Assembly: GCF_040687965.1 (NCBI RefSeq) | Contig: NZ_CP156084.1 | Location: 2,666,501 to 2,730,500, forward strand | Length of the DNA stretch: 64,000 bases | Origin: Methylocystis echinoides | GTDB taxonomy: Bacteria; Pseudomonadota; Alphaproteobacteria; Rhizobiales; Beijerinckiaceae | Reading direction: 5' to 3' | Shown: positions 2,542-11,159 of the stretch, in pieces | How positions within the stretch are numbered: the first letter of the stretch is position 1 | Layout of the letters: each line of letters starts with the position of its first letter | Program-made: the position numbers and the translations under genes | Notes under the pieces: model-generated | What the model saw: only the letters and a program-made list of their open reading frames with translations | Databases searched by the model: none | What the model was told of the DNA's origin: nothing

Positions 2542-2559
2542 TCTGGGGAAAGAGACAAG

Positions 2560-2585
2560 CGGCGCCCGATTCAGGGCGCCGTTTT
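2560..2585 (+). terminator. Rho-independent terminator after the lysozyme gene
   Basis: An 8-bp perfect stem (2560-2567 with 2574-2581) with a six-base loop is followed by TTTT. The stem overlaps the stop codon of the convergent gene on the minus strand (2571-2573), so the two genes share this end region. Confidence 0.8.
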
Positions 2586-3311
2586 CTTTGTTCCGACGTC
2601 AAGCGAGGTGGCGATCATCCGCCACGAGGCCGTGGGGGGCGTCGAGCCATCGATCTGGCGGCCGACGTCGAGAGCGAATGTGACAGAGGCGAGCAGTGCG
2701 GTTGACGCCACGGGCGCGAGCAATCGAGTTCCGCCGGCCTGCTCGATTCGCAAGGCCGTCTGACCGCTTGAACGGCCCGACTCGGCAAGGGCTCCGATCG
2801 TCTTCATGCCGCGCCGGATGACCAGCGACTTGCCAAAGAAGCCGACGCCGAGGCTGAGGAGAAATTGCCAAACCGAGAAGTTGGACGGCGACAAGCCCAT
2901 GACCGCGCACTCGAATCCGGTCGCTGCGAGAGCTGGCGCGTATAATCGCCGGTAAAAAAGCCAGAGCGAGGAAAAGAAAAACGCGTCGAAGGAGAAGCCC
3001 GGCCTGAGCGCGCCGTCGTGCTTCATCTGGAGCCAGAGGTCGCGATAATCCTCCCAGCCCGGTCCGATGAACCACCGCATCTGAGTCTCATTGGCGCCAT
3101 AGGCGGCGCTCCCGCGGCGAGGAGAGGGAAGCTCTGTCAGGGGCGCTTGGTCGCGGCCTATTTCCGCCTCCTCCTCGCCGGCCCTGGAAAGGTCGGCGTA
3201 GGATAGCCGGGGCGGGTCGGCGAGCGGTTGTTTGCGGTGGTCTCGCGCGGGGACGCGCGGGGTTTTCTGTGACCCGCGCCGGCCGAAAGTGACGACTCGC
3301 TCTGGATTCAC
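2571..3311 (-). CDS. DUF2628-like membrane protein
   Basis: The 246-residue product is of unknown function. The middle part (about residues 75-180) resembles DUF2628 proteins: a tryptophan-rich cytoplasmic segment MRWFIGPGWEDYRDLW, then FDAFFFSSLWLFYRRLY, then two hydrophobic segments (about 130-165) and a positively charged continuation. The N-terminal 75 residues are polar and low-complexity. The GTG start at 3311 is supported by a strong ribosome-binding site, GGAGG, seven bases upstream; an ATG at 3080 is the alternative and would give only the conserved part. The gene converges on the lysozyme gene and lies back to back with rpmF. The leader can fold so as to hide the ribosome-binding site (see the hairpin at 3314-3359). 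Confidence 0.6.
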   Translation of the reverse strand: MNPERVVTFGRRGSQKTPRVPARDHRKQPLADPPRLSYADLSRAGEEEAEIGRDQAPLTELPSPRRGSAAYGANETQMRWFIGPGWEDYRDLWLQMKHDGALRPGFSFDAFFFSSLWLFYRRLYAPALAATGFECAVMGLSPSNFSVWQFLLSLGVGFFGKSLVIRRGMKTIGALAESGRSSGQTALRIEQAGGTRLLAPVASTALLASVTFALDVGRQIDGSTPPTASWRMIATSLDVGTKKTAP

Positions 3312-3313
3312 AC

Positions 3314-3359
3314 AACGCCTCCATGATTACATTCAACAATGTTTTCAGCAGGAGGCGTT
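3314..3359 (-). promoter_or_regulatory. Hairpin that can hide the ribosome-binding site of the DUF2628-like gene
   Basis: Bases 3314-3322 and 3351-3359 form a perfect 9-bp inverted repeat (AACGCCTCC / GGAGGCGTT) with a 28-base interior. The interior holds a second hairpin, ACATT (3329-3333) and AATGT (3338-3342) around a four-base loop. In minus-strand RNA the inner arm GGAGGCGTT contains the GGAGG placed seven bases before the GTG start at 3311, so the outer stem would block ribosome access. This layout resembles translational switches such as RNA thermometers. It could instead be a DNA operator between the divergent genes. Confidence 0.55.
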
Positions 3360-3441
3360 AAATCCGCGCTTAGATTCTTGGTGAAAAATATGCTTGAGCT
3401 CGAGCTGTCGACGGTCGGGTAAAGCTGTGGCGCGCGACGGC

Positions 3442-3470
3442 TAGCCAAGCGCGTCAAATTCGCGTATAGG
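3442..3470 (+). promoter_or_regulatory. Possible rpmF promoter
   Basis: TAGCCA (3442-3447) and TATAGG (3465-3470) are 17 bp apart. Each matches the sigma-70 -35 or -10 consensus at four of six positions or slightly better. They lie about 70 bp before the rpmF start codon. Confidence 0.35.
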
Positions 3471-3537
3471 GCCGCATCAGTTTCCGCCGTGCCGGGGCGA
3501 ACCCGCGCGGCCTTCGCCGTTTAGTAGAGAGAAGCAA

Positions 3538-3726
3538 ATGGCCGTTCCGAAGAGAAAAGTCTCCCCGATGAAACGGGGCTTCCGTCGTTCCGCCGACGCC
3601 CTCAAGGCCCCGACCTATGTCGAGGACAAGGACTCGGGCGAGCTGCGCCGCCCTCACCATATCGACCTCAAGACCGGCATGTATCGCGGCCGTCAGGTTC
3701 TGAAGGTGAAGTCGACCGAGGAATAA
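3538..3726 (+). CDS. rpmF: 50S ribosomal protein L32
   Basis: The 62-residue basic protein begins [20 protein letters not shown], the conserved N-terminus of L32, and has the alphaproteobacterial tail with [17 protein letters not shown]32 is a small protein of the large ribosomal subunit. The zinc-binding cysteines of some L32 forms are absent, which is the usual alphaproteobacterial form. AGAGAGAAG just upstream provides the ribosome-binding site. The gene stands alone, with a strong terminator 20 bp downstream. Confidence 0.97.
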
Positions 3727-10819: not shown

Positions 10820-10851
10820 CGGCCCCCTCCTTTGGAGCGGGGCCGTTTTTT
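10820..10851 (+). terminator. Rho-independent terminator after ahcY
   Basis: A 7-bp stem (10820-10826 with 10839-10845) continues into an inner CTCC/GGAG stem around a TTT loop, with one unpaired C. Six T follow. Confidence 0.9.
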
Positions 10852-11159
10852 ATGCGACTCTTCGTCAGAAACACGATTCCGTTTTCTCGAAACGCGTTCT
10901 AGATTGGGACGATTCGTAGTATGCGTGCCGAGCGTGGGCGCGACGGTCGGGCGAGCTGGCCGGACCCGGTCCACCCGCCTTCTCCGGAGGCGCCGCCGGG
11001 CGCCTGCGTGTGTCCCCGCTGTTCGTCCTCGATTATCGAGCAAGAGTCCTTGCGCAAGGTTCCCTGTGCGGTTTCGTCGTGAGCGTTTTCAATTATCTCT
11101 GGAGCCCGGCTCTCGATGACGCCCGAGCCGCATGGCGCGCGAAAGGAAATGTCTCGTTC
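10852..11159. other. Intergenic region before divL
   Basis: About 310 bases lie between the ahcY terminator and the chosen divL start. They include a small inverted repeat CGTTT/AAACG (10880-10884 with 10890-10894) and otherwise no recognisable promoter, RNA or conserved reading frame. The divL frame is open from 11010, so part of this region would be coding if divL starts further upstream. Confidence 0.35.

Follow-up and report, generated by a model that had tools for sequence, protein, structure and literature searches.

Several described systems resemble the structure considered here. Hairpins that sequester the Shine-Dalgarno (SD) sequence are constitutive structures of the 5′ UTR that set basal translation, and the dependence of translation rate on their stability has a slope of 0.45 mol/kcal (PMC3936740). 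A second kind of leader hairpin is formed by RNA thermometers such as the ROSE elements, in which the pairing of the SD is imperfect and includes non-canonical pairs (PMC3669281). Palindromes of a different sort are the RIMEs, a name given to two-palindrome intergenic repeats of the Rhizobiales (PMC2573895). The locus examined here lies in a 64-kb stretch of DNA (the window) from a Methylocystis genome of 4.35 Mb, where a lineage-specific palindrome is found at the beginning of a DUF2628-like gene. With moderate confidence, resting on modelled RNA folds, this palindrome may be viewed as a constitutive translational brake, provided that it is transcribed.

The core of the palindrome is an inverted repeat whose arms on the plus strand read AACGCCTCC at 3314-3322 and GGAGGCGTT at 3351-3359, 28 nt apart. 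Read on the minus strand, AACGCCTCC (3359-3351) is the 5′ or anti-SD arm and GGAGGCGTT (3322-3314) is the 3′ arm, which contains the SD sequence GGAGG (3322-3318). A preliminary description of this DNA had pointed to a perfect 9-bp repeat enclosing a nested 5-bp hairpin; the pairing is indeed exact, and the nested element (ACATT-GTTG-AATGT) is present. The 5-bp apical stem sits above an additional 3-bp TGA/TCA stem, and the complete apical hairpin TGA-aa-ACATT-gttg-AATGT-aa-TCA (3324-3347, minus strand) appears in both minimum-energy and centroid structures. That description missed an outer stem formed by GGATT (3365-3361) and AATCC (3308-3304), so the structure is larger than claimed: in the folds the extended stem-loop occupies 3304-3365 on the minus strand, with a predicted energy of -25.4 kcal/mol when folded alone. 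The outer stem leaves GTGTG (3313-3309), which holds the GTG start codon, in a bulge, and its 3′ arm AATCC coincides with codons 2-3 of the gene. The spacing between GGAGG and the GTG at 3311 is 6 nt, not the seven bases first counted.

The DUF2628-like gene (2571-3311, minus strand) encodes a protein of 246 amino acids with a partial Pfam match to DUF2628 (PF10947), which scores 25.5 bits against a curated cutoff of 23 and joins residues 98-137 to positions 15-54 only of the 93 in the model. The DUF2628 gene usually present in the family is a different locus (G000:C1:2850771), and the domain occurs in 114 of 119 genomes. Start options, homology and frame scoring place the start codon at the GTG at 3309-3311 (minus strand). 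This is the first possible start after the in-frame stop and the sole ATG, GTG or TTG before the ATG at 3080, which would be residue 78. A protein from another family within the order, encoded at locus L057, aligns from residue 8 (TFGRRG here, TFGKRG there; E 6e-13), and the alignment runs through FIGPxW into the DUF2628 region; the N-terminal extension from GTG 3311 is therefore very probably coding, and a start at ATG 3080, which the preliminary description had listed among the findings that would speak against it, drops out as an objection. The TFG(K/R)RG sequence, common to the proteins encoded from 3311-3270 (minus strand) here and from 1294 (plus strand) of L057, lies far from the DUF2628 part, with a variable linker between them. 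The codon-usage score over 3311-3081 ranks this frame best of six (+7.2), a result that does not settle the start. Taken with the L057 alignment, it leaves the GTG, also preferred in the preliminary description, better supported than ATG 3080, which has no SD ahead of it and is disfavoured as the real start both on that account and because the homology reaches residue 8.

The local gene order is mgtE and a GH25 gene (plus strand), the DUF2628-like gene (3311-2571, minus strand), rpmF (3538-3726, plus strand), which is divergent from the DUF2628-like gene, and a short-chain dehydrogenase gene. The promoter/leader region of rpmF (3439-3537, plus strand) is conserved and lies outside the hairpin on the opposite strand; in most Methylocystis relatives it consists of TAGCCA, then TTCGCGTATA(G/C) and CAGTTTCCGCCG. 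Between the GH25 gene and this region is a lineage-specific segment of about 0.9 kb (2542-3437) that holds both the DUF2628-like gene and the hairpin. The segment is missing in the closest relative (L059, contig RXIY01000011.1), where 14 nt separate the end of the GH25 gene from the rpmF promoter, the flanks are 89% and 85% identical, and gene and hairpin are both absent. Short GH25-rpmF spacers are also the rule in the remaining Methylocystis relatives for which the spacer was read, with exceptions such as Methylocystis sp. Sn-Cys, where an unrelated sequence of about 0.9 kb occupies this position (L061 4051-4974, corresponding to 2542-3437 of the window).

No orthologue of the gene was detected in the other 38 genomes of the genus or in 396 other genomes of the order, where the best similarity was 31-41% over part of the protein. 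The named-genome, plasmid and viral collections likewise held no orthologue, and a plasmid or viral origin was set aside on the lack of a match in those collections. Among the matches to genus DNA, those inspected belonged for the most part to waaA/kdtA genes or were due to chance, and were rejected as orthologues. Judged by sequence comparison, the gene has only distant similarity in the genomes searched. No orthologous leader was found in the collections searched; the 9-bp inverted repeat occurs once in its own genome and is absent from all 40 relatives searched, and no further copies of the hairpin motif are dispersed in its own genome. The hairpin would have arisen when the segment entered between GH25 and rpmF or afterwards, and would not be a conserved regulatory element.

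On the brake reading the palindrome would form the 5′ leader of this lineage-specific gene: a transcript starting upstream of about 3365 would adopt a stem-loop of high stability, with the entire SD paired and the GTG start bracketed. Folding energies here are ViennaRNA predictions for isolated RNA, and for the hairpin they range from -20.4 to -25.4 kcal/mol. The predicted probability that the SD is unpaired is 0.0003 at 37°C for all 5′ and 3′ transcript ends tried, in keeping with the earlier proposal that the SD is fully paired if transcription begins upstream of about 3359. To open the SD takes 13.8 kcal/mol; the SD:anti-SD duplex, calculated with the usual bacterial 16S tail and not one taken from this genome, contributes -9.3 kcal/mol. 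With the published slope (PMC3936740), a cost of 13.8 kcal/mol predicts translation at about 0.2% of the unhindered rate. Initiation would be strongly and constitutively lowered, the hairpin acting as a brake and not as a sensor. The reading builds on the sequence itself, the start codon as placed by homology, the predicted fold and the empty site in relatives, and from these we infer transcription through the hairpin, low expression and the lack of a dedicated signal. Provided that the leader is transcribed, almost no protein would be made from the gene at any mRNA level, which would be a simple example of a newly acquired gene kept quiet by leader structure.

The same stability bears on whether the hairpin could be an RNA thermometer, as the preliminary description had suggested from its geometry, with warming melting the stem and freeing the SD. 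The SD is paired in a leader hairpin as it is in ROSE and fourU elements, and at 20-25°C its predicted unpaired probability is 0.0001 if the leader is transcribed. However, this value rises only to 0.0005 at 42°C and 0.0010 at 50°C, so that the stem stays shut at every physiological temperature, and the SD is closed even at 60-70°C (0.0026 and 0.0071, respectively). By the same calculation, opening costs 3.9 kcal/mol in the ROSE element before an hsp20-like gene in another Methylocystis genome (G047), against 13.8 kcal/mol here. The CCUCC/GGAGG pairing is also perfect, without destabilising mismatches or non-canonical pairs of the U(U/C)GCU or four-U type, and a comparison with Rfam up to E = 1 gave no family for the hairpin. 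With the ROSE element of the same genus as yardstick, a thermometer is rejected on stability and is held to be extremely improbable. Genome G047 has two ROSE elements (L239 and L240), one of them before the hsp20-like gene, and none were found in the other 38 genomes of the genus, the present one included.

How far the fold exceeds chance depends on the scale at which it is viewed. A 52-nt segment folds at -22.0 kcal/mol (z -6.4), a value reached by none of 200 shuffles and by 2 of 3978 segments of that length at 40-45% G+C, and the 111-nt fold is mildly unusual (z -2.1). When the SD was kept fixed and the upstream leader shuffled, three of 3000 leaders locked the SD equally well, a rarity that counts against a simple brake in that it leaves room for selection for function. 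The wider background consisted of 864 kb, namely the window and 40 further stretches, in which a simple purpose-made codon-usage gene finder yielded 448 SD-bearing genes, so that counts over this set are approximate. In it, three SDs were at least as occluded as this one, and two were inside a perfect stem of at least 9 bp, this hairpin's among them. SDs locked this tightly would number a dozen or more per genome, or about 16 when scaled to an assumed 3900 genes. The hairpin thus exceeds chance locally and falls genome-wide in a small tail, where it is rare but not unique; with SDs this locked recurring about a dozen or more times per genome, a hairpin over the SD is by itself poor evidence of a switch.

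A dedicated translational switch, whose stem would be opened on a signal by a protein, a small RNA, a ligand or refolding of the nascent RNA, could also produce a leader in which the whole SD is paired and the start codon bracketed, and the scarcity of shuffled leaders that match the fold fits such a view. It is weakened by the lack of conservation and of any orthologous leader found, by the absence of an Rfam match and of any further genomic copy of the motif, and by the 13.8 kcal/mol needed to open the stem. The distant homologue at L057, which shares the N-terminus, has an open SD (0.48 unpaired) and so is not locked. On balance a switch is unlikely. More doubtful still is the specific scenario in which a newly acquired orphan gene came with, or rapidly evolved, a near-absolute lock on SD and start codon, with a trans-acting factor to open it.

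The constitutive brake supposes that the hairpin is part of the mRNA. A consensus scan gave no sigma-70-type promoter, and the hairpin may accordingly not be in the transcript, which counts against a brake. Transcription might instead begin within or below the palindrome, which, if active at all, would then act as DNA, either as an operator or as an element in the rpmF/DUF2628 divergent promoter region; this reading has a small but appreciable probability. The failure to find a promoter upstream is in line with it, as are the operator-sized inner part of the palindrome, TGANNACATTNNNNAATGTNNTCA, and its location in a divergent intergenic region that is AT-richer (49.6% G+C in 3312-3438). Yet transcription initiated below about 3322 would yield an mRNA without the SD of the supported start, and the palindrome has no other copy in the genome. 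An intrinsic terminator was likewise considered and rejected, since the scan gave no T run after the stem on either strand.

The origin of the hairpin is a related matter. An intergenic repeat of about 115 bp with two hairpins (TAGAGCGCTTCCCGATCACATGGAATCATGTGATCGATAAGGAATCGCTCAAAATCAAAA...), which is RIME-like, was found in 27 of 39 Methylocystis genomes; its loci in the relatives (L242, L243 and L245-L276) show paired changes between species. The present hairpin could derive, through decay, from the first hairpin of this repeat, which is abundant in many Methylocystis genomes. The bulge geometry and architecture match, as does a trailing AAATC, and all five non-self matches of a single-hairpin covariance model within the genus appear to fall on copies of the repeat. 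Conversely, a reverse model places 3311-3365 (plus strand) second in the window, at 16.1 bits and E 0.065, in a search seeded by this hairpin; the place it ranks first, 10847-10901, is another likely decayed copy. That place (minus strand, 17.7 bits) retains the loop GGAATC and lies just after the terminator of an adenosylhomocysteinase-like gene. Since the repeat was found by way of this hairpin, however, the scores are circular and not independent, and across 39 genomes the single-hairpin matches lack significance, the best having E 0.018 per genome. Scores just as high come by chance from three GC-rich places within 200 kb. The second hairpin is missing, and the nhmmer profile of the full element, made from 52 copies, has no hit on 3280-3460; the genome itself has no copy of the two-hairpin repeat at E 0.01. 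Membership in the repeat is suggested by eye and by covariance model and not by profile, and descent from it is improbable on the whole. A decayed repeat would explain where the hairpin came from, and brake action could still be compatible with it. A switch, a palindrome acting as DNA and a decayed intergenic repeat are readings with less support than a constitutive brake.

Set beside the described systems, the hairpin is like the first one of the RIME-like Methylocystis repeat in its succession of arm, bulge and inner hairpin and in its AAATC tail. It differs in having outer arms free of mismatches, a weaker inner stem and no second hairpin, and the similarity falls short of significance. ROSE-like thermometers (RF00435) are also 5′ leader hairpins that pair the SD of a downstream gene, as in this alphaproteobacterium, whereas here the 9-bp stem is perfect and G+C-rich, its arm has no U(U/C)GCU, it does not open with temperature or match Rfam, and the downstream gene is no small heat-shock gene. 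The hairpins that set basal translation by sequestering the SD (PMC3936740) are also comparable: they too cover the binding site of the 16S rRNA and need unfolding for initiation, and in comparison the predicted hairpin is a very stable one.
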